Assembly: GCF_001640025.1 (NCBI RefSeq)
Contig: NC_031671.1
Span: 1,984,001 to 2,048,000 of the forward strand
Direction: 5' to 3'
DNA: 64,000 nucleotides
Source of the DNA: Sugiyamaella lignohabitans
Taxonomy: Eukaryota; Ascomycota; Dipodascomycetes; Dipodascales; Trichomonascaceae
A program made the position numbers and the translations under genes. Below the pieces are notes generated by a model. It was not told the origin of the DNA and searched no databases. It worked only from the letters and a program-made list of their open reading frames with translations. Shown here in pieces: positions 3,001 through 64,000 of this stretch; position 1 is the first letter of the stretch; each line of letters opens with the position of its first letter.

Positions 3001-5142
3001 TAATTTTTACTAGAAAATATTGGAGATCCTTCTAAGTTAAAATGGGGCAAAAAGGGACATTCGGCTTGTTTTCGTAGTTTTATTGGCTTAGTCGTAGTAT
3101 TAACTATAATAATAGCATTTACGACAAAAGAACCAAGCAATGAATACCTGTAGTCAAGAAGTGTGTTTTATTCGATCGCATGCATGAGATGCCGTTTGCA
3201 AATCCACCCAGCTCACCGAAAAACCTAAATTCACCACCCATTATCCTTTGTTTTTATGTCTATATAATACCCAGATTTGACTGGTTTTGAAATCATTAGG
3301 TATATGATATTATTGTAGTTACTGGCGATACCCGATGAATTGGTGGACTAGATTTTTGGTAATTTTGTCTCAAGCCGGATCATATATGGCAATTAACCGC
3401 TTTTGATATTTCCAGCTCAGTATCGAGACTATCACATGTAATTCCGGTTCATTTCCGTTCTACGTGAAATATCCATCTTGGATTTGAGCTTCTCCCAATA
3501 CTCAGCTTGGTTCCTATACTCCTATGTTTATAGTATTCAAGTTGTATAAGACACTGACGAGGGTGGCCCTTACCTTACCTCCAACGACCATGCACCCCTT
3601 CATTCCCCAAATAAGGAACTAAAGTTAAAGTTGAAACTGGTTAGCAATATAGACAAGAAAGGAGAAATTAGACCAAACTATCAGCAAACCAGTCCGTCAT
3701 ATGATTGACTTTGACAAGGAGCAAAATACGAAATTGGTGCCAGACAGCAGCAACCACGGTCTAAGGAACTCCTGCGAAGCAGGAGCCACAGGGTCTGGGG
3801 CAGCGCCCCAGCCGCCGGAGGCAGGACCCTTTCTCGCTGCACCCTGGCGTCGTTTAAATCACGGCCAAGTAAACCATTAGATCGCGAGCATCCACCCCGA
3901 CTGGTCTTTTTCGCGCAATCGAGTCGAATATCTCAACAGAAAAGGTGGATGACACACTTGAGCTAACGGCCCAATTACATCCCATCTTAGTCAAACCCCA
4001 GTTTAATCAGCAAACCATTTACGCTGTTTAATGAGAAGTCGGTCAAATCGGCCCCAAATGCCGACGCTTTTTGTAATTTATAAGATAAATGACCCGATGG
4101 ACAGCAATTATTGAGCCCGCAGGTCAATCTAGCCTAAGCGTGCATGACCGTTTAACCCTTGCCGCCAGGGGGTAAAAAAGGAGGTGTCAAAAATATGTAG
4201 AATGTGTGAGCACCATCGCATGCACTGAAATGGATTCAGCAGGTAAAGTCGGGTGAACACACCGAACAGACGTGGTTGGACAGCGGCAACGGCATCAGCG
4301 GGCCGCGAATGCGTTATAACGGTTGTAGCGAGAAAACTCTAAACTAACAAAAAAGTACCTTGTCCAAACGAGCAAATTGCACTTTCCGCTGCACTGACAG
4401 CCAAGTCGCGACAAGAAATTTCGCCAAAATAAGACAAGTTAAAAGGCCATAGTACACGGCACTAATGTACGCCTTGTCATCCGACCAGGTCAACCATTCG
4501 CGAGATTTTGTCTAATAACATGTATTCGCATGAATTGGCATGACTTAGCATGGTTTGGTAAATACTGGATATTAATTTAAACGATCGAGAATTACTATTG
4601 CTAAATGCTGGGAGATCCATTTCCATCGAATCGTGCAACTGCCCATACTTTATAGGTCATTTATATAAGTGAAAAAAAATCGACAGTTAATAATCATTGC
4701 TGATAAAGATACCCGGTACAAATATAGAAATACAATTCCCTAATATAGTCAATCTCCACAAGTCGGTTGTACATTTGACCATGCATTAATCCGCATTAAC
4801 AGGCTAGTATCGAAAATCATTCCATAAATAACAGCAAAAATGTGTCAAAGCGCTAATCCGTGCATATACATGCAGACTCAATCATGGTCCAAGCTCGCTA
4901 AATAGCTAGACATAAATTAGCTATAACTTAAAAAAATTCATAAGATAGACCTTTCCAATTTAGGTCCTGCAAAGTGCCATGTACGTCGAGCACCCCCTTG
5001 ATTCTACAATCGGCAAATCTATTTGCAATCCGCAGATTTCCTACAGCAGGATTATATATAATGCCAGGAGCCTGCACTCCTTGACTCCTGTATTCTGCTA
5101 TCAAGAACACAATAACTGCGAGAAATATAATATACTGTCACA
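3001..5142. other. Gene-free 2.1-kb region
   Basis: I see no supportable gene here. It holds one GC-rich hairpin half-unit (3769-3823). The rest is AT-rich, unstructured sequence with stops in all frames. It separates the tRNA gene from the coiled-coil gene at 5143. Confidence 0.6.
3769..3823 (+). repeat. GC-hairpin element, solo right half-unit (locus 1)
   Basis: It contains the hairpin CTCCTGC-GAA-GCAGGAG, then CTGGGGC-AGC-GCCCCAG, then the terminus CCGCCGGAGGCA. No left half-unit is nearby. See the family description under findings. Confidence 0.9.
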
Positions 5143-5754
5143 ATGTTTGAGAGATTGGTACGGTCACAATCCAAGTCTCAACCAGAGATTGTGAAGCCCG
5201 GTAGGGAGGGTGATAAGAAAAGAACAGAGGCTCTCGAGGAACAGGTCAAAATCCTGTCCAGTACAGCTTCTGAAGCGGTTGATAGAGCCAGTGAGCTTGA
5301 AGAGGAGGTCCGTCATCTCAGACAAATAACCCGTAGTGGATCTTTGCAATCGTCATTATCGAGCTTTTCACATTCTACAGATGGATCCAGATTAAAGAGC
5401 TCGGGGTCTATGAACTCGTTATTTTCCACACTTAGCACCGACACTGCAGCTACTGCAGAGTTCGAAGATGATATCTACAGGAAAAACTCCGTCAGTGGAG
5501 TAACCAGTGATTTAGAAGTAGAACGTCAACGTAGAATCCTGGCCGAGAGGAAGGTAGAGGAGTTGTCAAAATCACTTTCCAAGGAAACCAACTCAAGAAT
5601 CCAGCTTGAAGTTAAATATAAAGCACTTGAAGAGTCTGCTGAGAGACCAGACGAATCACAGGAAAAGCGTTTGCATACTTTAGAAGTCGCACTCAAAGCA
5701 ATTCTCAACGCTCGCAAGGAGTTGAATTCTATAAGACACTACAAGTATGTCTAG
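5143..5754 (+). CDS. Unrecognised coiled-coil protein
   Basis: The frame encodes 203 aa from an ATG. I do not recognise a family. Residues about 25-65 (EALEEQVKILSS to EEEVRHLRQ) and about 125-195 (LEVERQRRILAERKVEELSK onward) have heptad-like, charged coiled-coil composition. They are joined by a Ser-rich linker of about 60 residues. There is no signal peptide or membrane segment. The gene converges on the SUN-domain gene with 210 bp between the stops, the only convergent junction here without a GC-hairpin element. A structural or tethering role is guessed from the coiled coil alone. Confidence 0.55.
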   Translation: MFERLVRSQSKSQPEIVKPGREGDKKRTEALEEQVKILSSTASEAVDRASELEEEVRHLRQITRSGSLQSSLSSFSHSTDGSRLKSSGSMNSLFSTLSTDTAATAEFEDDIYRKNSVSGVTSDLEVERQRRILAERKVEELSKSLSKETNSRIQLEVKYKALEESAERPDESQEKRLHTLEVALKAILNARKELNSIRHYKYV

Positions 5755-5964
5755 TAGGACCAGACTAAAATTCAAGAGCAGTGTCTATAGATATCTACTG
5801 GACACAAGCAAGCAACGACTTTACTGCATATAACGACCGCTACGACCGATTAATTTATTTTCCTCTCATCACTAATATACCTTCTCCATTTCCCTAGCCA
5901 ATAGTCATCTCATCCTTAGCAAATAGTCATTAATTAAAATACACATCAATACATCACATCATTA

Positions 5965-9019: not shown

Positions 9020-9264
9020 TGCCTCCGGCGGCTGGGGCTGCGCCCCAGACCCCCCGGCTCCTCTCGCTTCGCTCGAGTTGGGCGTCGGCGGGCTTGGAGG
9101 TTCTGCGGCTTTTGGCGGTGCGAAGGGCTCGCTCGACAACTGCAGCTGCTTCAGTTTATACTGGCAGGAAACAGATGGAAGAGGAGCCCTGTTGTAAGGG
9201 GACCCGAAGTTCTCTGCGAAGCAGAGCAATGGGGTCTGGGGCAGCGCCCCAGCCACCGGAGGTA
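9020..9264. repeat. GC-hairpin element, left-right pair (locus 2)
   Basis: The left half starts TGCCTCCGGCGG with hairpin CTGGGGC-TGC-GCCCCAG. The right half ends in a mutated terminus (CCACCGGAGGTA) with loop AGC. The right inner hairpin reads CTCTGC-GAA-GCAGAG, a compensated change from the usual CTCCTGC/GCAGGAG stem. The central spacer is longer than in canonical copies. Confidence 0.85.
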
Positions 9265-11225: not shown

Positions 11226-11360
11226 TGCCTCCGGCGGCTGGGGCTCCGCCCCAGACCCCGCTGCTCCTCTCGCTGCGCTCGAGTCGAGCGTCACAGTCCC
11301 AGCAACTCCTGCGAAGCAGGAGCAACGGGGTCTGGGGCTCCGCCCCAGCCGCCGGAGGCA
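11226..11360. repeat. GC-hairpin element, full pair at a convergent junction (locus 3)
   Basis: This 135-bp pair lies between the transporter stop (11180) and the OSH3 stop (11398). The left loop is TCC. The right half also shows TCC on the top strand where GGA is usual, so this loop is inverted relative to its stem. The central part is in reverse orientation: the CTCCTGC-GAA-GCAGGAG hairpin is on the right. Confidence 0.92.
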
Positions 11361-15383: not shown

Positions 15384-15528
15384 TGCCTCCGGCGGCTGGG
15401 GCTGCGCCCCAGACCCCACTGCTCCTCTCGCTGCGCTCGAGTCGGGCTTCGGGGCGTCCAGTTCTCCTGCGAAGCAGTGCGAAGCAGGAGCCACGGGGTC
15501 TGGGGCAGCGCCCCAGCCGCCGGAGGCA
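15384..15528. repeat. GC-hairpin element, full pair (locus 4)
   Basis: This 145-bp pair has loops TGC (left) and AGC (right), with the central part in reverse orientation. Part of the right inner hairpin is duplicated (gcgaagcagtgcgaagcagg). Confidence 0.92.
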
Positions 15529-16080: not shown

Positions 16081-16130
16081 GAACGAAGCGAGCCACGGGG
16101 TCTGGGGCAGAGCCCCAGCCGCCGGAGGCA
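16081..16130 (+). repeat. GC-hairpin element, solo right half-unit (locus 5)
   Basis: It begins CGAAGCGAGCC, has hairpin CTGGGGC-AGA-GCCCCAG and ends CCGCCGGAGGCA. It lies 121 bp upstream of the TMS1 ATG, the copy closest to a start codon on the upstream side apart from locus 9. Confidence 0.9.
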
Positions 16131-17685: not shown

Positions 17686-17745
17686 CCCTCTTTCTTTATA
17701 TATTATCATTTATTTCACGAGTTACTTTACTTTGGGTCGAGTGCC

Positions 17746-17885
17746 TGCCTCCGGCGGCTGGGGCTCCGCCCCAGACCCTGGTTGCTCCTGCTTCGCAGGA
17801 GTTGGCTGGGACCGTCGACGTAACGACTCGAGCGCAGCGAGAGGAGCCACCAGGGTCTGGGGCGGAGCCCCAGCCGCCGGAGGCA
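17746..17885. repeat. GC-hairpin element, full pair (locus 6)
   Basis: This 140-bp copy is close to the family consensus: left loop TCC, right loop GGA, left inner hairpin CTCCTGC-TTC-GCAGGAG, and central GGGACCGTCGACG. Flanking GTGCC and GGCAC extend the terminal symmetry. Confidence 0.93.
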
Positions 17886-17892
17886 GGCACAC

Positions 17893-18493: not shown

Positions 18494-21400
18494 ATGTCTT
18501 CGGTTCCTGCACCTCCATTTGTGGTCACGGCACTGTATCCGTACCAGTCGGACCATCCCGATGATTTGTCTTTTGAAACTGGCGAGAAGATTGAGGTCCA
18601 ATCTGTAGAGGATGACGACTGGTTCAGTGGAAACAGTGTCGACGATCCTACGAGAAAGGGTATGTTTCCCAGAAATTTTGTAGAAGTCAGTCAGGAACCG
18701 TCGTCGGCTGCCTCGGTCACGGAACAGGCTGCTCCTTCTACTGTTCCGGCTCCTGTATCAGCTGCTATTGCATCTACCGGGTCATCCTCAGTACCAGCCT
18801 CTGCATCTGTCACCCAGTCTAGTAAGAATGTTGCTGGCGACGATGATGGTGATGACGGCTGGTCGGAAGAAGAAGACAACGACCAAGAAGAATCCAAATC
18901 CATTCATATCGGACCTCCTCCGACGGCAGTTGCAGCTGCTTCCAGTGGTAAACCAGCAGCAGCACCAGCTTCATCATCAGCTCCAGTAGCTAGTAGTCCA
19001 TCATCAGCTCCTATTGAATCGGTAACTAACAAGTTGTCCAATATCGATATCAAAGACTCTTCAGACGATCGAGCTCCTTCATCAGCTCCTGTTTCTCATT
19101 CTCATAACCCAGATGCTGCTGAAGAGGACACTAGCAATATTGACCATAAACCCACTGCTGCCACCAGAAATGCATTCAAGGATAGAATTGCCGCATTTAA
19201 TGTCCAATCTGAAGCTGCTCCTATAGTTCCTGGTCAACAGAAATTCTCGTCGTTTGTCAAGAAGCCATACGTACCACCTCCTAGTTCGTATGTTCCTAGC
19301 ATTCCCAAGTCACAACCATCTGTTTCACGAACCAATACATTTGAAGCAGTTTCTCCGTCGAATACTGGCAGTCCAGTTATTTCCAATAGCAGTTCAGCTT
19401 TTGAGCGTCAAGCTTCACCTCCACCAGCTGCCGTTGACCATAGTCACGACCAGCAGGATGAAGAAGAAGCAGTTCCCAAGATGAGTTTGAAAGAACGTAT
19501 TAAGCTATTACAGCAACAACAGCAAGAAGAGCAAGAACGGGTTGAAGCGGCTGCCTTGCGTAAAAAGCAGAAAGCCAAAGCCAAGAAAGCATCTGCTGCA
19601 GAAGCTGTTCATGATGACGGAACTGCAGTTGAAGAAGGAGATCATGTTGCACCCGCAGCACCAGCTCCTCTTGAAAGAACCTTGTCCTCCAGTTCTCGGA
19701 AAGAACTCCATAGAGTAGCAACTGGAGGATCCATTGCATCTGTTGCATCGAGCATTGCTGCTGAAGAACAACCTCTGTCACCAGCTAGCACTGGACCTCG
19801 TAGATCTGGAAGTTTCAGTGATAGAAAGCAGTCGATAGACAGACCTCGTAATCTAGACGATAGTCTTGTTCTCGAAGGTGACGAAACACAGCCTGCTGCT
19901 AGACCGGCTATTCCAACTCGTGCACCACTTTCACACGATGACGAGGTAGCTGAACAGGAAGAACCAGAAGAAGAACCAGAAGAACGAGGAGAAGAAGCTG
20001 AAGAAGAGGAAGAAGATGATGACGAAGACTATGAGGACGATGAAGAGGACGAAGAAGAAGCAAAACGAATTGCATTGAGAGAGAGAATGGCCAAAATCTC
20101 GGGTGGTATGGGCATGAACCTTGGAATGCTCATGACCGGTGGGTTCCCTCAACCGTCAGCGGCCAAATCAAAGCCTAAAACCAAGAAAGCGTCTAAACCT
20201 CAGCCAGAAGAGGAACAAGTCCAAACTCACCAAGCGCCAGTTCCCATGTTTCCGTTTGCTGACCCTAAAGCTCTAGCTGCTCTTCAGAAACGAACAACTG
20301 AGCCAGCAGAAGAAGAAGAAGAACAAGACGAGGAACCTGAACAAACTGAAAGGGTACCCGAAGAAGACACTGTTCAAGAGACTGATGAAATCAATCAAGA
20401 AGAATCAGCAGTACCTGCTGTTCCAGAGCCAGAACAGCGTCGGTCTCACTTACCCCCACCACCGCTTCCACCCTTGTCAGTTCCTGAACCGACCGGCCAT
20501 GCTCCACCCGTTCCCCAAACAATTCCCTCACCCGAGACACCCTCACGACCCGCCGCCCACCCCGTCTCATCCCCACCAATCGCGTCAGCACCCCCCATAC
20601 CATCCGTAGCCCGTTCACCAAGCACTTCAGGAGCACCTCCACCACCACCACCCCAAATCCCAGACCGCTCCATCCCCACTGGTAAGTCACAAACCCTCCA
20701 ATTCCTCTGACCAACGAACCACTAACGACACCCGTAGAACAGGACCCGGTCTACAAACCGCCCCGCCGGTCGTCGACCGAGCCGGTCAAGTCCCAGGTGG
20801 ACGAGGTCATTGAAGGTACGTACCCGGGGCCCGGACTGCCTCCGGCGGCTGGGGCTCCGCCCCAGACCCTGGTTGCTCCTGCTTCGCAGGAGAATTTAAA
20901 GAGGGGATTCCCCACGCCCGACTCGAGCGAAGCGAGAGGAGCCACCAGGGTCTGGGGCGGAGCCCCAGCCGCCGGAGGCACACCCCCCACCCGTCAGCCA
21001 CTAACCGCAGCAGACGAGCTCGGAGACGACGAACGGACCGAGTCCGAGGAAGGGTTCCGGGGACTGTCGAAGAGACATTCGTATATTGGCGGAAGTGGAG
21101 CGATTCCGCCGGTGCCGATATCGCCGAGCAGCACGGGCCGGTCGCCAATTGGGGCGGTGCCGAGGAAGTCGCGGACGGTGGACGATTTTTCGGATACTGT
21201 TCCTCACAGCCGGCCGCCTCCTCCACCGCTTCCTGTGGCGGGTTTGCCTCCTCAGGTGCCGGAACAGGACAATTTTTCCGATGAAACGACCGGATATGAA
21301 GCAGATGAGGACACGGATATTTATAATTCGAAAGATGAGGCGTCGGGGTCGCCTCGAGCAGGGTTTCATGGTCGGCAGCTGTCAACAGGGTCGTCCAGCG

Positions 21401-22854: not shown

Positions 22855-22993
22855 TGCCTCCGGCGGCTGGGGCTCCGCCCCAGACCCCGTAGCTCCTGCT
22901 TCGCAGGAGATTCCAGCGACCGTCGAAGAAACCGACTCGAGCGAAGCGAGAGGAGCCACGGGGTCTGGGGCGGAGCCCCAGCCGCCGGAGGCA
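22855..22993. repeat. GC-hairpin element, full pair (locus 8, first part)
   Basis: This 139-bp copy lies 61 bp after the BBC1 stop and is close to consensus (loops TCC and GGA). It is followed 20 bp later by an extra right half-unit, giving a left-right-right array. Confidence 0.92.
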
Positions 22994-23012: not shown

Positions 23013-23073
23013 CGACTCGAGCGGAGCGAGAGGAGCCACGGGGTCTGGGGCAGAGCCCCAGCCGCCGGAGGCA
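23013..23073 (+). repeat. Extra right half-unit in tandem (locus 8, second part)
   Basis: It runs from CGACTCGAGCGGAGCGAGAG to CCGCCGGAGGCA with loop AGA. The different loop shows it is not a simple fresh duplication of the neighbouring half-unit, which has GGA. Confidence 0.9.
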
Positions 23074-24709: not shown

Positions 24710-25258
24710 ATTTGAACCAAATTTTTAAACCTCGCTGACCCTTTTTTTCACTTTATTCTCTCTCGCTGCTGGCATTCGACGCTCAACTCGTTGAAAAGGT
24801 ACTAAAAACCACCACTTTTGCCCCATCCCCTCCCCTGTTTAATGAACCCCCCCTTCCTGTTTTTGCTTTTGTTCTTACCTTTTTGGGATACGACTTTGTT
24901 ATGACACTCTTGCGAGTATTATATTTATATTTATGTTGTATTATTTTGCCAGCTCCGAGTCCTGTTGTTTGGTTCGGTGTTTGCAGGTCTTCAACAATGA
25001 CCATGTGCATAGATTTACGTTTAATTTAATATAATTGTACAGACTACTTCTCCTAGGGGTCTGCCTCCGGCGGCTGGGGCTCCGCCCCAGACCCTGGTTG
25101 CTCCTGCTTCGCAGGAGTTTCGCGGGGATTGGACACGGAACCGACTCGAGCGGAGCGAGAGGAGCCACGGGGTCTGGGGTGGAGCCCCAGCCGCCGGGGG
25201 CCGACTTCGCGATCGCTCATGCACGAAACTTTTCACTTTACCCCTGAAATCACCCGCA
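24710..25258. other. SAM2-PUS9 spacer
   Basis: It contains the SAM2 3' region (T-rich), one GC-hairpin pair, and a TTACCCCTGA motif (25238-25247) only 11 bp before the PUS9-like ATG. I see no gene. Confidence 0.6.
25063..25202. repeat. GC-hairpin element, full pair with decayed right end (locus 9)
   Basis: The left half is standard (loop TCC, inner hairpin CTCCTGC-TTC-GCAGGAG). The right half has CTGGGGT in the stem, leaving a G-T pair, and a degraded terminus (CCGCCGGGGGCC). Confidence 0.9.
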
Positions 25259-26586
25259 ATGAACGCAGTGACCGAGTCCGGAGTCAGACGGATCCGTCCA
25301 TACTATTACACCAACCGGATCCACTCTAAAGAGAGGTGGTTCAGACGAACGGTGCGAGACGTGGTGGCTACTGAGTTCCGGGCTAATCTGGCTCTGGTTG
25401 ACGTGAGTAGTGGTGCTGCCTCCGGCGGCTGGGGCTCCGCCCCAGACCCTGGTTGCTCCTCTCGCTGCGCTCGAGTCGGGCGTGGGGTGTACTTTGCTCG
25501 TTGGGGAATTTCACGAGTGACCCCCCGACGCTCGACTCGAGCGCAGCGAGAGGAGCAACCAGGGCCTGGGGCGGAGCCCCAGCCGCCGGAGGCTGTAGAC
25601 ACCCCCCAGCATGTTTCTAACCCCAACAGGAGAACGTCGCGATACAGAAAGCCAAGTCGGGTGTGGTTTATAGGAGAGAAGAGGCGCTGAGTGCTGTTAT
25701 TGAGAACGGGGATGTGCTGGAATACAGGGTGCATTTCCACGAGCCGGCGGTGGTGGATTTCGGGCGGGAGATCGAGGTTGTGCACGAGGATGAGGAGATG
25801 GTGGTCGTGAATAAACCGGCTGGGTTACCTACTCATCCGTCAGGGAAGTACAGATTGAACAGTTTGACTGAGGTGCTGGTAGGACAGTTGGGGTATACGG
25901 TGCATCCTACTCACCGGCTGGACAGAATGACGTCGGGGATCGTTGTGCTGGGGAAAACTGCTCAGGCCACTTCCCGGTTTAGAACCGATTTGACGAATAG
26001 CAACAATGTCCACAAAGAATATTATGCTAAGGTGGTGGGAAGATTTCCTTTAGAAGATACGACTTTTGATTTCCCGCTGTTTGATATCGACGCCAATCGG
26101 GACCGGGCCTCGTTCATGAAAGCGTTTGCCAACCGTAAACCAGCCCAGACCAAGTTCAAGTTGGTCAGATACGATTTGAAAGACGACTCGAGTTTAGTCA
26201 AATGCGTGCCTGTTACGGGTCGAACCCATCAGATTCGCAAACACCTGGCTCTTATGGGCCATCCAATTGCCAACGATTCATTGTACAAGCGACCGGTGTT
26301 CAGAGAAATCAGTCTGCTGCTTGAGAAAAAGAACATCGAATCTGAAAAAGAGCACGAATCAGCAGTCTCAGAAGCATTCACACGACTCCAACTGGCAGCC
26401 AAACAAAGCAGACTGGACAAACTGGAAACTGGCAACGAAACCTGTCCCGAATGCCAAGTCCAACTGTTCAAAGACTCCACCCCCGACGAAATGTTTATAT
26501 ACCTCCATGCCAGACAGTACACCTGCCAGGAAAACGGCGTCACCAAATGGGACTACCAGGCCCCCCTGCCGCCATGGGCGCGGTGA
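25259..26586 (+). CDS. PUS9: RluA-family tRNA pseudouridine synthase (PUS9-like)
   Basis: Two exons, 25259-25402 and 25630-26586, join in frame to give 366 aa. The 227-nt intron is GTGAGT...CTAAC-cccaaCAG and carries a GC-hairpin pair. Exon 1 supplies the N-terminal segment YYYTNRIHSKERWFRRTVRDV. The catalytic motif HRLDRMTSG contains the family aspartate (near residue 136). Later come GRTHQIRKHLALMGHPI and a C-terminal stretch ending in WDYQAPLPPWAR. This order matches yeast Pus9 and the pseudouridine-synthase half of Rib2/Pus8, which form pseudouridine 32 in mitochondrial and cytosolic tRNAs. The deaminase domain of Rib2 is absent, which favours Pus9. Cytosolic or mitochondrial location cannot be decided. 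Confidence 0.88.
25417..25594. repeat. GC-hairpin element inside the PUS9-like intron (locus 10)
   Basis: This 178-bp pair starts 14 nt after the 5' splice site and ends 35 nt before the 3' splice site. The remaining intron would be about 50 nt. Both inner arms are of the CTCGAGCGMAGCGAGAG type. Confidence 0.9.
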
Positions 26587-26620: not shown

Positions 26621-26758
26621 TGCCTCCGGCGGCTGGGGCGCTGCCCCAGACCCCGTTGCTCCTGCTTCGCAGGAGACTCCCGGGACCGTCGACGCAACGA
26701 CTCGAGCACAGCGAGAGGAGCCACGGGGTCTGGGGCGGAGCCCCAGCCGCCGGAGGCA
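26621..26758. repeat. GC-hairpin element between convergent genes (locus 11)
   Basis: This 138-bp pair fills the gap between the PUS9-like stop (26586) and the stop of the minus-strand gene (26760), ending one base from the latter. The left loop is GCT and the right loop GGA, so the two halves differ. Confidence 0.92.
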
Positions 26759-38900: not shown

Positions 38901-38963
38901 CCCGACTCGAGCGTAGCGAGAGGAGCCACGGGGTCTGGGGCAGAGCCCCAGCCGCCGGAGGCA
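38901..38963 (+). repeat. GC-hairpin element, right half-unit (locus 15, right part)
   Basis: It has loop AGA and ends 27 bp before the stop codon of the AlkB-like gene. With the left half at 38496 it makes a widely spaced pair. Confidence 0.9.
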
Positions 38964-40594: not shown

Positions 40595-40997
40595 TTGTCT
40601 TCAGTTCACATTTGCAGTCAAGAACAAACCAAACCCACTGAACACAAAAACCAACAAACAGCTCAATTTAACTCCCGCTGGACCCAGTGTCAATTTGAAA
40701 TCAACATTTGTCATCCCGTCACGAAAGAAACACGCCCCGCTAGCCGCGCGCTTAATGCATTACCCCTGGAAAAGCAATATTGAGCAACGATATGCAGGGT
40801 CCGGGTGTGCCTCCGGCGGCTGGGGCTCTGCCCCAGACCCCGTGGCTCGCTTCGCTCGTACGTCAAGCGGGTCATAATATTATGTTGTGGTCACACAACG
40901 ATCCTAGCAACGAGCGAAGCGAGCCACGGGGTCTGGGGCAGAGCCCCAGCCGCCGGAGGCACACCCCCACCCCAGAAGAATCAGTTAATTAGGTAAA
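40595..40997. other. Spacer between the AlkB-like gene and GAL10
   Basis: This 403-bp gap contains a TTACCCCTGG motif (40760-40769) and a GC-hairpin pair whose right end lies 37 bp beyond the GAL10 stop. Confidence 0.6.
40808..40961. repeat. GC-hairpin element, full pair (locus 16)
   Basis: This 154-bp pair has loops TCT (left) and AGA (right), which are reverse complements, so the halves match. The inner arms are of the CGAGCGAAGCGAGCC type on both sides. Confidence 0.92.
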
Positions 40998-42560
<1,563 letters not shown>

Positions 42561-43411: not shown

Positions 43412-43473
43412 CCGACTCGAGCGAAGCGAGAGGAGCCACGGGGTCTGGGGCGGAGCCCCAGCCGCCGGAGGCA
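43412..43473 (+). repeat. GC-hairpin element, solo right half-unit (locus 18)
   Basis: It has loop GGA and keeps the central module GGGACCGTAGACG on its inner side, so the left boundary may be a deletion point within a former full pair. Confidence 0.9.
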
Positions 43474-46856: not shown

Positions 46857-47041
46857 TGCCTCCGGCGGCTGGGGCGCTGCCCCAGACCCCGTTGTGCTCC
46901 GCTTCGCGGAGCTCCTGGGACTGTCGACCCCCTAAACAGTTTAAAAACCGGGCCCTGGAGCTCCTGGGACCGTAGACACCCGACTCGAGCGAAGCGAGAG
47001 GAGCCACCGGGTCTGGGGCAACGCCCCAGCCGCCGGAGGCA
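46857..47041. repeat. GC-hairpin element between convergent genes (locus 19)
   Basis: This 185-bp pair lies between the stops of the IFH1-like gene (46778) and eIF3f (47101). The left inner hairpin is the compensated form GCTCCGC-TTC-GCGGAGC. Loops are GCT and AAC. The centre contains a partial duplication beginning gctcctggga. Confidence 0.92.
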
Positions 47042-48018: not shown

Positions 48019-48428
48019 CTTCTGTGGATCTATCTCTTCAGTTTTCGGCTTCTAAACTGGACCAGTGTCTGATGTGGACCTGTGAAATTTACGTGATGCG
48101 TCTCTTTGACCACTGCGACTTTGAAATTTTCACTGCATTAACCCCAACCCACTTATAAATATAGCGCCGTGTAATCCTGATCCAGGGGGAATGGATTCCT
48201 GAAGAGGTTCTACGGTTCGTGAAATAGCAAAATTCGGTGGGGAAAAAGTCGGATTTTAAGGGGTGGTGGTGGGGGTGGTGTTGGCCTCCGGCAGCTGGGG
48301 CTCCGCCCCAGACCCCGTGGCTCCTCTCGCTTCGCTCGAGTCGGGCGTCGGGATTTCCAGTTGCTACTAAAATAATGCATGCAATTAATTAAATAATGAC
48401 TATATATGATGATGATGATGATGGGCTG
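48019..48428. other. Spacer between eIF3f and GCN2
   Basis: This 410-bp gap combines the eIF3f promoter with the GCN2 3' region. It contains a solo GC-hairpin half-unit (48282-48349) and a short (ATG)n run just before the GCN2 stop. I see no gene. Confidence 0.6.
48282..48349 (+). repeat. GC-hairpin element, solo left half-unit (locus 20)
   Basis: It has terminus GCCTCCGGCAGCTGGGGC, loop TCC and inner arm CTCTCGCTTCGCTCGAG. It is preceded by a G-rich stretch and lies 80 bp beyond the GCN2 stop. Confidence 0.88.
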
Positions 48429-51400: not shown

Positions 51401-53960
51401 CGGCATCATCTTCATCATCGTCGGAATCAGATCCAAATTGGATTTCTGGTCCTTCAACCATTGAATTAGACATGAAATCTAGAGATGCATTGACCGATAG
51501 CTCGTTGAAATTAAGATTGCTCAATGATGAGCTAAGTGATGTTATGGGTCTTTCATCATCAGATGACTCTTCAGAGCTGTCTTCAAACACAACGGCATTG
51601 TCATCGTCTGACTCCTCGCTCTCCTGTTGGCCAAGTGAGAAATCATCTTCAAGCCACGCCGTAAAATACCGAACCACATATTGGTGGTTTAGACGAGATA
51701 GTAGCCATACTTCTTGTAGAATATGAGTTAACTTATCAGCAGTAGCCTGGATCTTTTTTATCGCATATGCTCTTCCGTCTACTTTGTTACGCGCTTTGAC
51801 AACCTCACCATATCCACCTCTTCCTAAAACTACACCTTCGTCAAAATCATTGGCATACCGAGAATAAGCAGGACCCGAGTTTCTAGAAGTAGCTGTGCTA
51901 AGTGGGGAGTTAACAGCGCGAAGATTGACGATATTATCACGTTCCATGTTGAAACTACGTCTTGGACCGCGGTTGGAAGACCTGCGACCAAGTAAATGGT
52001 ATGTGGGTCTTGATCCCGAATTTGTGCGTTCAATAGTGGCGGATGATGAAAGAGTGTCAGAAGGAGTGGTGCTTGTGCTCTTGACCACGGAGTTGGCTGC
52101 TGCGAACGTGGCGGGATCGGATCGAAGAAACTGCGAAAGCAGCAAATCAAACGCACTTGGTCTCTTCTTAGGTGATTCTTTAAATATGCGAGCCAAGAAA
52201 TCAGTAAGTAGATGAGAACTATCATCATATGAATTGATATAGTCAAATGGATTATCAAACTCGTTGATGATAGACTTTCCTGTGATAAGCTGGACAAACA
52301 CCACGCCAAACGACCAAATATCGGACTTTTTGGTTGGCTTGATACCGCCATTCTCATCAGAATACTCAGGAGGACACCATTTCTTTGAAACAGAAGACAT
52401 GTTGTTAGGAAGCAAGTTGTTCTTTGAAGAGAACAGATGAGCTTTGTTGAGCTCATTTAATCTAAACGAATAGGATACGGAATCTAACTTGATGATTGTC
52501 TCACCTAGGTCTTTGTTACGAAATAGTGCAATATTTTCCAATGTAAGGTCTTTGTGAACAATGCCTACTTTATGAAGAGCCTCGAGAGCTTCTAAAATTT
52601 GAATCGACCAGGTTCTGGCAACTTTTGGACTGACTGCTTCTACTGCATCTAATAACCCGTTCAGGTTACCCATGGGGGAATACTGAGTCAATAGGTATAT
52701 TTTCCAGCCGCCAGAAGAGTTTCGACTAATTTTTGCCTCATATAAAGGAACGACATTTTCATGCCTGAACTCCTTGAGTGAGTCCAACTCCGATTCGAGA
52801 AGGTGGATTTGTCGTCTACCGTCAATACTGTCCCAAAACGGTTCGTTCAGATCAATTTCCGACAGCATGAATAGAACGTCGTCGACAGCCTCGCTAGAGT
52901 CACCATTGTTAGCCGGTATAAATGGTTTCACAATATAGTTATTTCCAAAGAAGTTTGATGTAGTAGGGATCTTGCCCACAACCTGTTTAAACCGTAATAC
53001 AGAACCATTCTGGCGCTTGACGGTCACCACTCGGTCGAAAACCACCGAATCGTTTGATTCGATGTTCCCCAAACCTACCGAATTTCCACCAGAAATAGCA
53101 AACAGATTGGCGCTGCTTCCATTCCGACTATTACTGCTGGCGCTTACATTACCACCACCACTTCCAGTAACAGCGCCTTTAAGATTCACACTACTTTCAG
53201 TAGGAGTGACAATTCCAAGTCCATCATTCAATGCCTCGGCTTCTTCCTCCTCTCTTGACAAGAAATCGTCCTTCATCTTCTGTTTCTGACGTCTATTCAA
53301 CTCTTCTCGGACCATTTCGTCCAAAACACGTTGCTCCTCCCTGGATTCCGCCTCCTTCATACGTCTGCGATTCTCTTCATCCTGACGTTGTTTCTCCTCA
53401 GCCTCTTTTATCCTATTCAATCTCTCCTCTTCTAAACTAGGGGCTTCAGCTCCTAACCTCTCATACTCGTTCAACTGATCCTGCAAAACCGAGGTCACTT
53501 CGAAAATCATTTCCTGACCGACGAGCTCTTTAATCGTTTTCTCGGTCAATTGTCTGAGCACGTCCACCTGCCGAGGATGTAAATTGTTATGCGAATCGAT
53601 CACTATCAACGGCTTTGTTTTGGGATATGTACTGGTCATCGTGACCTTAATTCCCAAGGTCATTGCCCCGGATCCACTGTCATTCTCATCAACGGATCCT
53701 GATTTCAGGCGGATTTTAAAACTCGGACTTGGCTTTTTCTATCAACAAGTTAGTTCTCCACTCACCAACACGTCCTAATTCTCCTGCGAAGCAGGAGCCA
53801 CGGGGTCTGGGGCGAAGCCCCAGCCGCCGGAGGCAAAGAAACTTACATTCCAAGCAGCGCTCTGAACAGTACAATCTTCGAAATCATCCATGTAAATGGC
53901 CTTCAGGGCCTCTACTTCGTTGGTCTGCACCTCGCGAAGTTCATCTTCAGGTAGAGTCAT
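48429..53960 (-). CDS. GCN2: eIF2-alpha kinase Gcn2
   Basis: Two exons, 53960-53847 and 53738-48429, join in phase 0 to give 1807 aa. The 108-nt intron (GTAAGT...CTAAC-ttgttgaTAG) splits the RWD domain, whose halves read EVQTNEVEALKAIYMDDF and KKPSPSFKIRL. After a charged helix (about 165-220) comes a pseudokinase (about 290-560; HKDLTLENIAL, no DFG). The protein kinase follows (from about 670): VLGRGGYGEVVKA, a long acidic insert, HRDLKPMNIFI near 904 and DFGLAK. A HisRS-like domain (from about 1150) and a C-terminal ribosome/tRNA-binding region follow. Gcn2 senses uncharged tRNA and phosphorylates eIF2-alpha. The intron holds a solo GC-hairpin half-unit. Confidence 0.97.
53781..53835 (+). 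repeat. GC-hairpin element in the GCN2 intron, solo half-unit (locus 21)
   Basis: Read in the GCN2 sense direction it starts 11 nt after the 5' splice site with TGCCTCCGGCGG and ends at the CTCCTGC-TTC-GCAGGAG hairpin. On the top strand the loop is GAA. The intron without it would be 53 nt. Confidence 0.92.
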
Positions 53961-54411: not shown

Positions 54412-54478
54412 TGCCTCCGGCGGCTGGGGCTCCGCCCCAGACCCTGGTAGCTCCTCTCGCTGCGCTCGAGTCGGGCGT
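54412..54478 (+). repeat. GC-hairpin element, solo left half-unit (locus 22)
   Basis: It has a G-rich outer arm, terminus TGCCTCCGGCGG, loop TCC and inner arm CTCTCGCTGCGCTCGAG. It ends in TCGGGCGT, as in other left halves of this subtype. Confidence 0.9.
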
Positions 54479-54960: not shown

Positions 54961-55095
54961 TGCCTCCGGCGGCTGGGGCTCCGCCCCAGACCCTGGTTGT
55001 GCTCCGCTTCGCGGAGCGGCGGGGACCGTGACGCCCGACTCGAGCGAAGCGAGAGGAGCAGCGGGGTCTGGGGCGGAGCCCCAGCCGCCGGAGGC
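54961..55095. repeat. GC-hairpin element, full pair (locus 23)
   Basis: This 135-bp pair has the compensated left inner hairpin GCTCCGC-TTC-GCGGAGC, central GGGACCGTGACG, and loops TCC and GGA. Confidence 0.92.
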
Positions 55096-56882
55096 TCGCC
55101 CCGGCCCCCCTGACGCAGGCCGGTGACAGGCGGACGGTGTCTGGGGTTCGTACAGGGCAGATCGCAGGTAAAACCTGGTCGCAGTTCCTGAAACCGCCGC
55201 GACGGAATCTGGCACAGGTGCAGTTGAGACGGTCCGGACCGGGTGGGATTGAAAATTGGTTGTCTGATAGCGGTTATTGTGGCAGGGTGGTTCAGATTCA
55301 GGGTTCAAGGACAGGCGTGTGATTGTATGTGCGGCCCTCGTTCCTTCTCGTTTGGGAGATGCCGCCCCCTGAAAATTCGCCATTCGGCTTACCCCTGGAA
55401 GGTGGTGCAGCAGCCCTTGCCCAGCCTGGCCGGGCTGGGGGTCATGACTGCACCACCTGATACAGGCTCAACTGGGTCTTTTTTCACCTTTTTTCGGTTT
55501 ATTAGGTGTTTTCTGGTTGAAAGAACTGAGTTGGTGAAAGAGTCATGGTTTAATGGTGGGGAAAAGATGGTTTTAGAGGGTCCGGAGGGCCGGAAGTCAG
55601 AAATAATAGCTCCGGAGGTTACGCCATCAACCCGTCTGGGTATGCATATAACCTACCACCTGCCCGACAGGATTATGTGCTTACAAAGGGAAAATAACCC
55701 TCGCTGCTGCAGTTAGCACCGACTGGGGGCTGACCGGCCTAGCCCTAACATCTAAATACCCCTGTGAAAAAAGGAACTACCATCCCTTCTTATTTAGTCT
55801 CTCCTTGACCCGACCGACCTGCCTGGCCAAGTGCTTTTATCGTTATCTTTATCCCACACCCCCTAGATTTTCGTGGGGTTTCTCCTTCTCAACTGTTTTT
55901 GGTTAATCCGATATTAAATCAAAATCTGGTTTGACCCCGAAAACAATTTAATTTGTCTGCTAACAGCTCATTCGAATCGACTCAAAATATAGGTCTGGCT
56001 GATTCTGGTGTCACTAGCGTCATAATCTCTACCCCCTCCCCCTGTGGTGTTTCGGTGTTTGATATCGACTATTTCTTTCCAGTTTACTATTTCCAAAACA
56101 CTCGAAAAATCTTTTTCTATTACTGTCACGATAATAAACTCTCTGGTTTGGTTTTTGTGGACCCCGTGATTGCATTTTGTTTACCTAAATACACCCGCCG
56201 CCCCCTGTAACTTGCTGTGTGTAACAGTGCATTTTGTGTGCTCAGGGTCGGCTGTAAAACGCAAACTATCCGTCCATCGAATTTGTAAACTGACTATATC
56301 GAGTGGCTATTTTCCAGAGATCCTGTTTTTACCACCGGTTTTGGGATTTTTCTGTGGATTGTTGCTCTGTTTATACCTGGTATCGCCGTCCGGTTGTCGC
56401 TCACCACCATACATATCAACACATAACAAGGCATTCCAGGGGTAAACCTCGTCCTACACACAAACGCCTCTATTCCCACTGTTTCTGGTCCACAACACTG
56501 TTTCTATTGTATCCATCCGACATCAGCACTTGGATATTATCATCGCGTGATATCTTTGACGGCCTTCTCATTGCCGCTGCTGCTCTCTGACCATCTGCTA
56601 CCGCTGCTGTTGTTGATACGATCGCAGTTGTCAAAATCCTGGTTTCGACAAGATTATATCATTTCTGCACTTTATCACTTAACGGTGCAGTTAGAGCTCA
56701 TTTCTATTCTGGCAGTACCAAACCTTCAGGTTCTGACCACCCTTATTTATTTCATATTATTCACAGCTACCAGGGGTCGTAGAATTCCTGGAGTCCACAC
56801 GATCCACACGCCATCCAGATCCTGGACGATTCTCAGCGCTTGATCCTACCAGTGCTAGAGCCACAACCGCATACCCCGTGCC

Positions 56883-57647
56883 ATGTCCGAAGTGAACGCA
56901 GCCGCGATGGTGCTACTGAGCCTCCGTCAAGAAAACGAAGACACCAAACCCCCCAAAACACGGTCGCCCCGCAAACGGCGCCGGACCCCGTCCTACGGCT
57001 CGTCGTCCTCATCCTCGTCCTCCCAGGACTACGAAACAGAATTCTACCCACAAAAACGGTCACTGGCCACATTCAAAGTCGGCAGTCCGCCGTCTCCACC
57101 CTCACAGTCGGAACAAGATCGGGAAGGTGAGTTCGCGGTGGCCTGTGTGCCTCCGGCGGCTGGGGCTCCGCCCCAGACCCCACTGCTCCTCTCGCTGCGC
57201 TTGAGTCGAGTGTCTCGGACCCCCCAAGAACGACTCGAGCGAAGCGAGAGGAGCAACCAGGGTCTGGGGCGGAGCCCCAGCCGCCGGAGGCAGACCCCTC
57301 TCCCCCTAGAAAGACACTAACAAAACCCAGATTTCCACCACTATTTTCCAGGTAGAGATGTGATTAAACTGAACTCGCGGGCAGCCAACCGGCCCGGGAG
57401 CACGCCGAGTATGGCGATTAAAAAGACGTTTGGCTGTGATAACTGTGGAAGGGCGTTTGCCAGGCGGGAGCATCTGTTCCGCCATATAGAGACAATGCAC
57501 CATGGGCAGAAGGATTTCAAGTGCGAGCTGTGTGCACGAGTGTTTTCGCGGAAAGATAATATGATGCAACATGTCCGGAATAAACACGGAGCCAAGGTGA
57601 AGGGCGATACGTCGGACGAAGCCGACGCCGATGCCGTGGACGAGTAG
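56883..57647 (+). CDS. C2H2 zinc-finger protein
   Basis: Two exons (56883-57126 and 57331-57647) give 186 aa. The 204-nt intron is GTGAGT...CTAAC-aaaacCCAG and contains a GC-hairpin pair. A later AG at 57351 would also keep frame and remove seven residues; the CTAAC position favours 57330. Exon 1 encodes a basic, Ser-rich region (RSPRKRRRTPSYGSSSSSS) likely to act in nuclear import. Exon 2 carries two adjacent C2H2 fingers: CDNCGRAFARREHLFRHIETMH and CELCARVFSRKDNMMQHVRNKH by position 57430-57590. A short acidic tail ends the protein. It is probably a DNA-binding regulator of the Msn2-like two-finger class; the target is unknown. Confidence 0.85.
57148..57292. repeat. GC-hairpin element inside the zinc-finger-gene intron (locus 24)
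   Basis: This 145-bp pair begins 21 nt after the 5' splice site and ends 38 nt before the chosen 3' splice site, leaving about 59 nt of other intron sequence. Both inner arms are of the CTCGAG type. Confidence 0.92.
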
Positions 57648-58025
57648 GCATCCCTTGATTTTTATTATTATGATTGTTATTATTTTTTCGTTCTCACACA
57701 CATCGCATCACTTCACACATATTCATCCGTCACTTTTGGTTCGAGTTTTTCTCTTTCTGCTGTTTTTTCTTTTGTTCGTTGTGGCTGTCTTGTTAGCAGC
57801 CTGTATTTAATATTTATCGTCCCATGACAAGACACCTGGACCGCCAGCTCCTGCATCTTATTTTGTCTCTGGACTGCTGTTCCGTTTCATCCTTTCTCAT
57901 TAATTATATATACACACAAATATATAAAACAAATGCGTCCCCATAGCCCGACTCGAGCGTAGCGAGAGGAGCAGCGGGGTCTGGGGCGGAGCCCCAGCCG
58001 CCGGAGGCAAGACCCCCCAGCCCGG
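57648..58025. other. Convergent spacer, zinc-finger gene / glutaredoxin-like gene
   Basis: T-rich 3' flank of the zinc-finger gene is followed by a solo GC-hairpin half-unit ending 17 bp from the stop of the minus-strand gene. I see nothing else. Confidence 0.6.
57948..58009 (+). repeat. GC-hairpin element, solo right half-unit (locus 25)
   Basis: It runs from CGACTCGAGCGTAGCGAGAG to CCGCCGGAGGCA with loop GGA, and sits between convergent genes. Confidence 0.9.
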
Positions 58026-58460: not shown

Positions 58461-58784
58461 TGCCTCCGGCGGCTGGGGCTCCGCCCCAGACCCTGGTTGC
58501 TCCTCTCGCTTCGCTCAAGTCGGGCACCTCAGTCCCGCTGACCGCTGGGGGTACAGCTGACCTGTGCTCGTTTCAGTTTTCAATTTTTTGGATTTATAAA
58601 CGGGAGCTGATTGCCGGTTTTTGGTGCATGGTTCAGCATCAGATCGATTTTATTGGGTTTGCACTCACAAACCCAGGATTGAAAAGAGCCCTAATTTTCC
58701 AGCCCCACTGGCCCGTCGACGCCCGACTCGAGCGAAGCGAGAGGAGCAGCGGGGTCTGGGGCGGAGCCCCAGCCGCCGGAGGCA
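58461..58784. repeat. GC-hairpin element, widely spaced pair (locus 26)
   Basis: The left half (58461-58527, loop TCC) and right half (about 58719-58784, loop GGA) are separated by about 190 bp of unrelated sequence. The outer flanks mirror each other: TCAGGGGGTGG before the left half and CCACCCCCTGA after the right half. Confidence 0.9.
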
Positions 58785-60626: not shown

Positions 60627-60979
60627 TTTATATTGAATCGTGTATTATGCCCACGCTGCCCACGCTGCCTCCGGCGGCTGGGGCTCCGCCCCAGACCCCG
60701 TAGCTCCTGCTTCGCAGGAGATTGCTCCGGGATTGCCCCACGCAACGACTCGAGCGCAGCGAGAGGAGCCACCGGGGTCTGGGGCGGAGCCCCAGCCGCC
60801 GGAGGCGCACCCCCTGAGCACCCCCCTGACGCGGCTGGCGGTCCCTGCAGAAAGAAAATTTCCAGCCGTGTACCGTTTTATGCAGTGTGCAGAGGTGAAA
60901 AAATAAAAATATTTCAGATCAGAGCTCGAGAGTCTTTTTAGTGTTTAGGACCGGTTCGTGATTTTGGAAATAATTTAGA
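60627..60979. other. Spacer between phosphatase-like gene and ARX1
   Basis: This 353-bp gap holds a full GC-hairpin pair 40 bp after the stop and the ARX1 promoter. Nothing else is seen. Confidence 0.6.
60666..60806. repeat. GC-hairpin element, full pair (locus 27)
   Basis: This 141-bp copy is close to consensus: loops TCC and GGA, left inner hairpin CTCCTGC-TTC-GCAGGAG, right arm CTCGAGCGCAGCGAGAG. Confidence 0.92.
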
Positions 60980-62533: not shown

Positions 62534-62558
62534 GCTCGTTTCTGGGGGTGCCCTCCTG

Positions 62559-62610
62559 TGCCTCCGGCGGCTGGGGCTCCGCCCCAGACCCCGTGGCTCG
62601 CTTCGCTCGG
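62559..62610 (+). repeat. GC-hairpin element, solo left half-unit (locus 28)
   Basis: It has loop TCC and inner arm GGCTCGCTTCGCTCG. It lies 26 bp after the ARX1 stop and before the convergent INH1 stop (62744), and is followed by a GGACCGTGGCG remnant of the central module. Confidence 0.9.
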
Positions 62611-62743
62611 TTGCTAGGACCGTGGCGGGCGGGCGTATTTGTATTTTTGCTATTTAATTTGATTGACTGACATTGTTGTTTTCCACAATTATTAACTAAC
62701 TGACTACTGAATAGAACGCAACGAACGATAGACGACAGACCGG

Positions 62744-63197
62744 TTATTTATTGTTCTTGGCCTTGATGTCGGCAATCTCCTTCTCCTTAGCAGCGCTACA
62801 CCGTTAGCCATTCACTCAATTGACACTCCCACGTAACTACGACACTACTTACATCTCGGCCTTCAAAGCCTTGATCTTCTCAGCTTCGTGCTGACGGACA
62901 TAATAGTCCTCATTAGCCTTCTCTCTCTTCTACAACCCCCCGTTAGTACTCTCTCCAGGACCCGTCACCCCTCCTCGAGCTTCGCTCGAGGAGCAACCAG
63001 GGTCTGGGGCGGAGCCCCAGCCGCCGGAGGCACACCCCCTTCCCCAAAAAACATACATTGAAAGCATCACCGCCCTGTTCGCCACGAGGAGCTCCGGTAG
63101 CACCCTCGGTGTAGTTGCGAGCAGCGACGAAAGCAGGGCTCGACAAAGCGGATCTGGCCAGTCGGAGACCGTTGGTACGCAGGACGATAGAAGACAT
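62744..63197 (-). CDS. INH1: Mitochondrial F1F0-ATPase inhibitor (IF1/Inh1)
   Basis: Three exons (63197-63057, 62929-62853 and 62795-62744) give 89 aa. Intron 1 (127 nt) is GTATGT...CTAAC-ggggggttgTAG and holds a solo GC-hairpin half-unit. Intron 2 (57 nt) is GTAAGT...CTAAC-ggtgTAG. The N-terminus is a mitochondrial presequence (LRTNGLRLARSALSS). The IF1 core reads GAPRGEQGGDAFN at the end of exon 1, then KREKANEDYYVRQHEAEK in exon 2. The Ala/Lys/Glu-rich tail forms the dimerising coiled coil. IF1 blocks ATP hydrolysis by F1 when the membrane potential collapses. Because it is spliced from short exons it is not visible as one frame. Length fits yeast Inh1 (85 aa). Confidence 0.93.
62970..63032 (+). 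repeat. GC-hairpin element in INH1 intron 1, solo half-unit (locus 29)
   Basis: The top strand reads CTCCTCGAGC-TTC-GCTCGAGGAG, a perfect 10-bp hairpin, then loop GGA and terminus CCGCCGGAGGCA. In the INH1 sense direction it starts 24 nt after the 5' splice site. The intron without it would be about 64 nt. Confidence 0.92.
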
Positions 63198-64000
63198 AGT
63201 TAGACTGGTGTGTTTTTGGCGAAGTTGTAGGATCAATTGACTTTTGGTGAAGTTAGCAATCGCTCGGGTGATAATCTGATCTGACAAGATCGCTCGCTGT
63301 CTTTCTGTCTCTCCTTCTTAACCACCTACGATTGGCCCGGTGCTGTGGCGTGGGGCTGACGCCAGGGCCCGGGTTGCTTGCGTCGTTCTTTGCAGAACCC
63401 TGTCTCACCCCGGTCACCTGCCGGGGGTCTCTGCAGCAGGGACCCACTTCGCTAACTGGGGTACATCTGGTGCTGGGGGGTGGGGGTTGCGCCTCCGGCG
63501 GCTGGGGCTCCGCCCCAGACCCCGTGGCTCCTCGAGCAAAGCTCGAGGAGGGCGTGGGGGGGTATCCAGGAGCTGATGGGCTCGGAGGGGTGGGTTCAGT
63601 TGACTCGGGGAAATGGGTGTAGATAGGGTAAGGGTGGTTGGTGTGGAAACAAGGTCGCGTAATAATGGCACGGCTGTGCTTCGAGAGAGTTTGGAGAGCG
63701 AGCGAGCGAGCAAGCGGGAGAGAGTGAGTAAGTGAGAGATTAGCGATAGGTTTGAGTTGGATGTTCCGTAAGTGACACTAATAGGAGCGGACACCGAAGA
63801 CGCGTGAATCAACCACGCAACACGGATTTTGTGCACCGACCGTTTGAGTAGCACTGGAAACGAGCCTTTTTTCTGCTCCCGCTTCTGTAAACTCCTAAAA
63901 ACCGGCAGATAAAAATCGAGTTCGCGGTTGTTGGAAACTGGCTTTCTCAACATCTGGATCAATCTCTATATATCAGTCACTTCAGGCACTAAAAGTGTTA
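63198..64000. other. INH1 upstream region to the window end
   Basis: It contains one solo GC-hairpin half-unit (63490-63550) and a purine-rich simple repeat (gagcgagcgagcgagc, then gagagagtgagtaagtgaga) at about 63690-63740. No gene is seen; the region is cut by the window end. Confidence 0.6.
63490..63550 (+). repeat. GC-hairpin element, solo left half-unit (locus 30)
   Basis: It has a G-rich outer arm, CGCCTCCGGCGG terminus, loop TCC and a perfect inner hairpin CTCCTCGAGC-AAA-GCTCGAGGAG. It shares the 10-bp inner stem type with locus 29, 460 bp away, but the loops differ (AAA against TTC). Confidence 0.9.

Follow-up and report, generated by a model that had tools for sequence, protein, structure and literature searches.

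A hairpin doublet dispersed through the nuclear genome of Sugiyamaella lignohabitans resembles bacterial REPINs in layout and a bacterial repeat frame in its arms

What kind of element could fill a yeast nucleus with short GC-rich hairpins is the question raised by a stretch of the Sugiyamaella lignohabitans genome, the 64-kb window analyzed here (C3:1984001-2048000, on contig NC_031671.1). The repeat in this window probably represents a REPIN-like inverted doublet of arms of the repetitive extragenic palindromic (REP) type, built on the bacterial frame GCCTCCGGCGG-hairpin-GACCCC and amplified to thousands of copies in the yeast nucleus. REPINs are doublets of REP sequences that form hairpins, with 71 or 110 bp between the REPs in SBW25, as described in PMC3116915. 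The assembly comprises 15,932,016 bases in 4 contigs; four chromosomes and 5,132 proteins are given for the species in PMC12232646, where S. novakii is likewise assembled into four chromosomes.

Arm cores were located by scanning for CTCCGGCGGCTGGGGC-NNN-GCCCCAGACCC with at most three substitutions, in the window and in a joined contig containing the window plus 100 kb on each side. Statistics on place and anatomy refer to this 264 kb of the 15.93 Mb, and copy counts to the whole genome. Of the 47 half-units that the scan detected in the window, 22 are left and 25 right; a sequence-only reading had arrived at the same total by eye. Thirteen left-right pairs had an inner gap below 150 bp, and there were no right-left or left-left pairs within that distance. 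The single right-right pair was the extra right half that the same reading had noted at 23013. The 264 kb held 230 cores, 190 of them exact, which formed 65 doublets (inner gap <130) and left 100 arms single; one base shuffle of this contig gave no arm cores on the scanned strand. Neighbors 60-150 bases apart were ordered left-right in 66 cases, left-left in 7, right-right in 4 and never right-left, while at less than 60 bases there were 2 right-left pairs and 1 right-right pair. Genome-wide, the exact 27-base core occurred 2,698 + 2,717 = 5,415 times against 0 + 0 for its reversed control. The description of a dense, non-coding nuclear repeat is supported. Exact left-right doublets with 63-93 bases inside numbered 1,355 (reversed control, 49). 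Among the matches listed for the plus strand, 13 exact cores fell in C1:1-200000 compared with 31 in C1:200001-260000.

Each arm consists of the terminus TGCCTCCGGCGG, a nearly fixed hairpin 1 (CTGGGGC-NNN-GCCCCAG), the letters ACCC and a covarying hairpin 2. In the alignment of doublets oriented from A to C these parts are followed by a variable center and then by the same parts inverted. The 38 clean oriented doublets measured 132-163 bases, 32 of them 137-143, in agreement with the two-hairpin inverted unit of about 135-145 bp described earlier. The terminus, hairpin 1, the inner hairpin or CTCGAG arm and the inversion also stood as named in that description. The central module GGACCGTMGACG did not, being only a loose consensus with 3 intact copies in the window, and the center is the most variable stretch of the alignment. 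Hairpin 2 is mainly of two kinds, A (CTCCTGC-TTC-GCAGGAG) and C (CTCCTCTCGC-TNC-GCTCGAG). An A arm was paired with a C arm in 41 of the 47 doublets in which both arms were typed (p 8e-8; 42 of 49 with looser typing). Since this pairing is present in two orientations, 24 A-C and 14 C-A, the element has a polarity that is masked by its near-palindromic form. The doublet used as an example for folding is laid out as follows (window coordinates).

17746..17885, unstranded: inverted doublet, type A-C, 140 bp, used for folding
17746..17757, plus strand: left terminus TGCCTCCGGCGG
17758..17774, plus strand: left-arm hairpin 1, CTGGGGC-TCC-GCCCCAG
17785..17801, plus strand: left-arm hairpin 2, type A, CTCCTGC-TTC-GCAGGAG
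17802..17823, unstranded: variable center with GGGACCGTCGACG
17824..17847, minus strand: right-arm hairpin 2 region, type C (CTCGAG arm)
17857..17873, minus strand: right-arm hairpin 1
17874..17885, minus strand: right terminus CCGCCGGAGGCA

This doublet (17733-17898 with flanks) folded into a single long hairpin, with z scores against shuffles of -13.1 and -15.1 as DNA on either strand and -13.6 as RNA. Among the called cores the stems were nearly invariant and the loops and center highly variable. The loop of hairpin 1 took 14 forms in 230 arms (TCC 120, TCT 38, GCT 25, TGC 20, TTC 9, and others), and of its stem variants genome-wide the paired CC..GG was present in 162 copies and the unpaired CC..AG in 18. 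Hairpin 2 fitted one of four stems in 186 arms, and 179 of these had a TNC loop; in type C the loops were TTC (56), TGC (31), TCC (14) and TAC (10). The other 44 arms contained altered but paired stems as well as broken ones, the paired variants being GCTCGC/GCGAGC, GCTTGC/GCAAGC, CTCTTGC/GCAAGAG and CCCTCTGC/GCAGAGGG. A GNA loop closed by GC pairs is the rule for unusually stable DNA mini-hairpins. The TNC loop of hairpin 2 is such a loop on the opposite strand, which hints at selection on DNA folding.

The exact 27-base core was found at 4 places among bacterial and archaeal species genomes. These were Solidesulfovibrio aerotolerans DSM 16695, two metagenome-assembled genomes (MAGs) named Desulfovibrionaceae and Desulfovibrio, and one Acetobacteraceae MAG (G003). 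In the same order, GCCTCCGGCGGC was counted 318, 135, 132 and 416 times, with 1, 7, 8 and 19 for the reversed controls. The yeast arm fits the bacterial repeat frame GCCTCCGGCGG-hairpin-GACCCC, with terminus and tail letters in common. In G003 the yeast stem letters were present in 273 arms, and exact doublets numbered 52, each count having a control of 0. The doublet arms are exact by virtue of the search pattern; the centers differed among the doublets listed, some being near variants of one another. The G003 stem is one pair longer (GGGGCC-N-GGCCCC), and the alternative paired stem CCGGGG...CCCCGG is also present there.

The frame was then sought as GCCTCCGGCGGC-N12-42-GACCCC. Of 120 genomes of the Solidesulfovibrio class 52 had matches, with no control above 1, and in a part of the 52 there was just a single chance match without a hairpin; the class maximum was 181, in S. 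aerotolerans (control 0). Among the multi-copy places listed, most stems differed between genomes yet paired. In 100 genomes of the G003 family the frame was found in 15, with 324 matches in G003 (control 0) and 71 in a second genome, G047 (control 1), where arms often have two hairpins in tandem as in yeast. The other 13 had one or two matches and no such hairpin in the listed sequences. Seven Solidesulfovibrio stretches, chosen for plus-then-minus spacing, were doublets about 144-276 bases long. Stems differed clearly between the two arms in 6 of the 7, which parallels the heterodimers of yeast. The matching genomes, with the loci L051 and L109-L123, represent a REP-like family in bacteria whose frame is fixed and whose stems vary but pair.

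A similarity is also seen in the tract that borders the arm on its outer side. At positions -12 to -3, purines made up 89% in G003 compared with 57-61% further out (36 arms, A-rich) and 68% in yeast compared with 46-47% (190 arms, G-rich). The signal was less clear in phage-like contigs (65% vs 41-46%, 13 arms) and in Solidesulfovibrio (88% vs 70-75%, 4 arms only). In yeast, positions -13 to -3 are 40-66% G compared with 24% in the contig, and the outer edge is sharp.

The exact core gave no match in viral contigs. The 17-mer GCCTCCGGCGGCTGGGG gave 34 stretches, a hairpin was seen by eye in 14, and 7 were used. Seven IMG/VR contigs (L062, L068, L074, L075, L077, L080, L084) share a syntenic region; a terminase, a portal and a head protease were recognized among 6 proteins searched in L077, and the contigs may be phages or gene transfer agents. 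In them doublets sit between head-cluster genes. At one junction, aligned in six contigs, a doublet was present in L077 and L080 and absent from L062, L068, L074 and L075. At a second, a doublet was present in L074 and L077 and one arm only in L068 and L075; L062, L084 and L080 had other sequence. Because the contigs are 65-83% alike outside the near-identical pair L062/L084, the junctions are not readable base by base. Presence and absence of doublets was seen only among these bacterial phage-like contigs.

Plasmid (19 records) and phage (3) matches of a 66-base arm consensus were set aside as chance stem matches. In 20 of the 22 the best place begins no earlier than query base 12 and so includes at most the final base of the terminus, and the other two span most of the terminus at 85% and 79%. 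Rfam, run on the window and three loci, matched a transfer RNA and a riboswitch and returned no family for the repeat; a c-di-GMP-I riboswitch lies at L051:5536-5620. A protein query from an open reading frame (ORF) spanning the hairpin had no match. A non-exhaustive literature search found nothing on the repeat in yeast or on the GCCTCCGGCGG frame in bacteria, and no name for the bacterial family.

The flanks of the 65 doublets were compared for duplications of 2 to 9 bases, both at the TGCC...GGCA boundary and as far as 27 bases beyond it. None was consistent, in line with the earlier reading by eye. The largest cell, a 3-base match at unequal offsets, held 5 of 65 doublets against 0.9 expected, among thousands of cells tested. 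For the first 13 outside bases, the match to the opposite flank came to 5.35, above all of 64 shifted pairings (mean 4.79, maximum 5.08), a weak hint that the palindrome extends into the flanks. Masked self-comparison of the 264 kb listed 10 repeats, none of which, judged by how many cores adjoin each copy, was taken as a filled and empty pair. Outside the hairpin elements, a dispersed repeat of about 136 bases is present in 3 copies that are 96-98% alike (L032:2315-2450, L036:9591-9727, L044:3403-3548).

Position relative to genes was assessed with 92 ORF-based models in the 264 kb, uncurated and with introns ignored. Core density per kb of intergenic DNA was 2.96 in convergent, 1.86 in tandem and 1.19 in divergent regions. 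Divergent regions nevertheless held 76 of the 230 cores (79 with a smaller gene set), and copies were present in 21 of 24 such regions. Among 156 units in scored intergenic DNA, 52 lay less than 150 bases from a stop codon, compared with 14.0 +- 3.5 and a maximum of 26 in 2,000 random placements. Start codons were neither avoided nor sought (19 units, 17.0 +- 3.9 by chance). Enrichment at stops with starts at chance points to attraction to, or retention at, 3' ends and not to mere avoidance of promoters. Overall, a core was located within 200 bases downstream of 63 of 90 stop codons and upstream of 22 of 90 start codons. One doublet (20837-20980) probably lies inside a single BBC1-like gene (18494-22794), which seems to be split. 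There an SH3 ORF occupies 18494-20710, and a frame that is open from 20797 runs through the doublet to the AIM3/BBC1 C-terminal domain; an intron, a frameshift or an in-frame insert may account for the split.

The remaining doublets and arms of the window are as follows.

11226..11360, unstranded: inverted doublet, type C-A, between convergent genes
15384..15528, unstranded: inverted doublet, left arm type C
20837..20980, unstranded: inverted doublet, type A-C, 144 bp, separating the SH3 part of the probable BBC1-like gene from its AIM3/BBC1 C-terminal domain part
22855..22993, unstranded: inverted doublet, type A-C, 60 bases past the stop codon ending at 22794
23038..23073, minus strand: extra single right arm (core 23045-23061)
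25062..25202, unstranded: inverted doublet, type A-C
25417..25594, unstranded: inverted doublet, type C-C, long center
26621..26758, unstranded: inverted doublet, type A-C
40808..40961, unstranded: inverted doublet with other second hairpins
46857..47041, unstranded: inverted doublet between convergent genes
54961..55096, unstranded: inverted doublet
57148..57292, unstranded: inverted doublet
60666..60807, unstranded: inverted doublet, type A-C, 39 bases past the stop codon ending at 60626
3788..3823, minus strand: single right arm
9020..9055, plus strand: left arm, 173 bases ahead of the right arm at 9229
9229..9264, minus strand: right arm
16095..16130, minus strand: single right arm
31575..31610, minus strand: single right arm
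34155..34190, plus strand: single left arm, 90 bases past the stop codon ending at 34064
36535..36570, minus strand: single right arm between convergent genes
38496..38531, plus strand: left arm
38928..38963, minus strand: right arm
42131..42166, plus strand: left arm
43438..43473, minus strand: right arm
48283..48318, plus strand: left arm
53800..53835, minus strand: right arm
54412..54447, plus strand: left arm
57974..58009, minus strand: right arm
58461..58496, plus strand: left arm
58749..58784, minus strand: right arm
62559..62594, plus strand: left arm, 25 bases past the stop codon ending at 62533
62997..63032, minus strand: right arm
63490..63525, plus strand: left arm

The genes between them are yeast-nuclear and encode an amidase, a SUN-domain protein, an oxysterol-binding protein, a SAM synthetase, an importin, a purine permease and a Gcn2-like kinase. 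An ORF at 307-993 has retrotransposon gag and CCHC zinc knuckle domains, with a Ty3 capsid match under the cut-off.

The crowding behind genes could mean that the repeat is a host element of 3' ends, a terminator, a 3'-processing signal or an insulating signal, kept behind most genes by selection and not by mobility. The excess near stop codons (63 of 90 compared with 22 of 90 starts; 52 of 156 units compared with 14.0 +- 3.5), the peak of 2.96 per kb in convergent DNA and the little stem variation would all follow from such a role. Read outward from the G003 arm, moreover, the tract is pyrimidine-rich as in intrinsic terminators. We consider this explanation unlikely, as 27 of 90 stops have no core within 200 bases, copies occupy 21 of 24 divergent regions, and one doublet probably lies within the BBC1-like gene, in an intron or in frame. 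The yeast outer tract is also G-rich and not T/A-rich, and the nearer arm within 150 bases of stops was A in 10 cases and C in 6, giving no clear orientation. A pure gene-terminator reading was rejected as the sole explanation because of the 76 divergent cores, the doublet in the BBC1-like gene and the chance frequency at starts. A further possibility is that bacteria and yeast reached the same arm independently, through folding or through binding something conserved. Bacterial stems vary at the listed places while the frame stays, which is what a requirement for the frame itself would predict, and the yeast stem is common to only a few genomes. Against this, 11 letters before and 4-5 after the hairpin 1 stem are shared, together with the doublet layout, the outer purine tract, two-hairpin arms and the alternative paired stem, and we know of no factor common to the yeast and bacterial hosts. 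Such convergence is regarded as improbable.

The interpretations proposed with the original observation fared less well than the observation itself, which was confirmed; they were partly supported. A classical miniature inverted-repeat transposable element (MITE), mobilized through its terminal inverted repeats by a DDE transposase, would have the inverted termini, the high copy number and the lack of coding capacity seen here. This reading is weakened by the lack of a consistent target-site duplication at any length from 2 to 9 bases, and the sub-hairpins and bacterial relatives do not fit it, so that it is now very unlikely, although the DDE families themselves were not searched. The idea that mitochondrial GC clusters or double-hairpin elements had invaded the nucleus has only likeness in form in its favor, PMC4478555 describing GC-rich palindromes with stems and loops. 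The sequence relatives found here are bacterial or phage-like, though no mitochondrial DNA was searched: the four contigs (C1, 5.93 Mb; C3, 2.77 Mb; C2, at least 3.6 Mb; C4, at least 2.1 Mb) include none of mitochondrial size. The mitochondrial link is thus unsupported, not refuted, and has a very small probability. No point was found in support of an assembly or adaptor artefact, and the thousands of copies, with differing loops, centers and flanks at gene-related places, make it scarcely credible.

Several results weigh against a mobile REPIN-like doublet of bacterial descent. PF01797, the Y1 transposase family, had no match in the yeast genome (in 5 of 14 genomes the control was positive), nor in G003, a MAG whose completeness is not established. 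Two matches each were found in three Desulfovibrionaceae, the two in G004 overlapping; the six Y1 loci there (1.9-3.3 kb) contained no GCCTCCGGCGG arm with up to one substitution. For the Helitron Rep family PF14214 the yeast genome also had 0 matches, but no control genome matched either. The yeast stem occurs in only 2 of 299 genomes of the G003 family, the second of which holds one copy, so no donor is identified. No yeast insertion polymorphism was seen within this single genome. Part of the arm conservation is ascertainment, because cores were called with up to three substitutions. When the terminus alone was sought (CCTCCGGCGG, up to one substitution), 21 further sites appeared in the 264 kb, about 13 of them altered arms by eye, several with a shorter stem that was still paired. 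Single arms are common (100 of 230), and arms in doublets were no better conserved than single ones (exact in 108 of 130 compared with 82 of 100), while REPIN doublets are more conserved than singlets according to PMC3116915. The 3' bias is also compatible with a host function.

Even so, a REPIN-like doublet is the reading we favor. In the proposed mechanism, the doublet would be the moving unit, with a single strand folded into one long hairpin with sub-hairpins. Insertion may take place where DNA is exposed near the 3' ends of transcripts, leaving no duplication. The arms would be retained while the center drifts, because, as we propose, only well-folding copies spread. The mover may be a protein outside those searched, or else host handling of hairpins in replication and repair. 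The most likely origin of the element is bacterial transfer followed by amplification. Transfer is held likelier than convergence since yeast and bacteria have in common the layout, the outer tract, the alternative stem and letters lying beyond the stem. The fuller scenario is put forward more tentatively: a bacterial REP/REPIN-type element may have entered the yeast nucleus, multiplied without a recognizable Y1 transposase until its arms about equaled the genes in number (5,415 exact cores and 5,132 proteins), and settled behind most genes examined (63 of 90 stops with a core).

If true, this would be, to our knowledge, the first eukaryotic REPIN-like population, and a mechanism effective in both domains would be able to spread such doublets. 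The element type would be uncoupled from the Y1 enzyme, and one short DNA sequence would live in both domains. Near-identical arm letters in yeast and bacteria are unexpected at such an evolutionary distance. The repeat also opens to test why hairpin doublets gather behind genes, by selfish spread or through a gene-end function. Similar GC-rich hairpins may exist in other yeasts, and would then lessen the novelty for yeast and leave the bacterial link unaffected.

Compared with known systems, the repeat shares with REPINs, as PMC3116915 presents them, two inverted hairpin arms, conserved ends, a less conserved spacer, extragenic location, one long hairpin and the lack of a gene. REPINs are tied there to a RAYT gene, whereas no Y1 domain was found in the yeast genome; the arm sequence is also different and the host eukaryotic. 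PMC3733652 and PMC3116915 report REPs and REPINs from prokaryotes, and RAYT transposases are said there to be required by GTAG REPs. The GTAG and CGTC REPs, according to PMC3733652, have palindromic arms, form dimers in opposite orientation that are often heterodimers, and lie mostly behind coding regions. The yeast repeat resembles them in its palindromic arms, inverted dimers, heterodimers and place behind genes, and CGTC REPs likewise lack a dedicated transposase according to the same paper. Unlike them, the yeast repeat has no unpaired GTAG, CGTC, TGTC or CCTC beside the stem, CCTC occurring within TGCCTCCGGCGG six bases off. In PMC3733652, CGTC repeats are moreover reported absent from Acetobacteraceae, where the GCCTCCGGCGG frame occurs. 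The mitochondrial GC cluster GC42 is similarly a short, GC-rich, palindromic mobile sequence without genes, but it is mitochondrial, 42 nt long and discussed with an AG target site (PMC4478555), and the likeness to it is one of form.

The closest likeness by letters is with the bacterial GCCTCCGGCGG-frame repeats. These share the terminus and tail letters, and in G003 the likeness extends to the stem letters (with one pair more), the variability of the loops, the doublets and the purine tract outside the arm. They differ in an outer tract that is A-rich in G003 and G-rich in yeast, in other second hairpins and in lower copy number (between 71 and 416 where counts were highest). Common descent by transfer may account for the likeness and is considered likelier than convergence. 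We do not classify the yeast element as a REPIN, because no Y1 enzyme was found, no GTAG or CGTC head stands beside the stem, and its doublets are not better conserved than singlets. It is like a REPIN or REP dimer in layout, location and lack of genes, and by its letters it belongs with the bacterial frame family.

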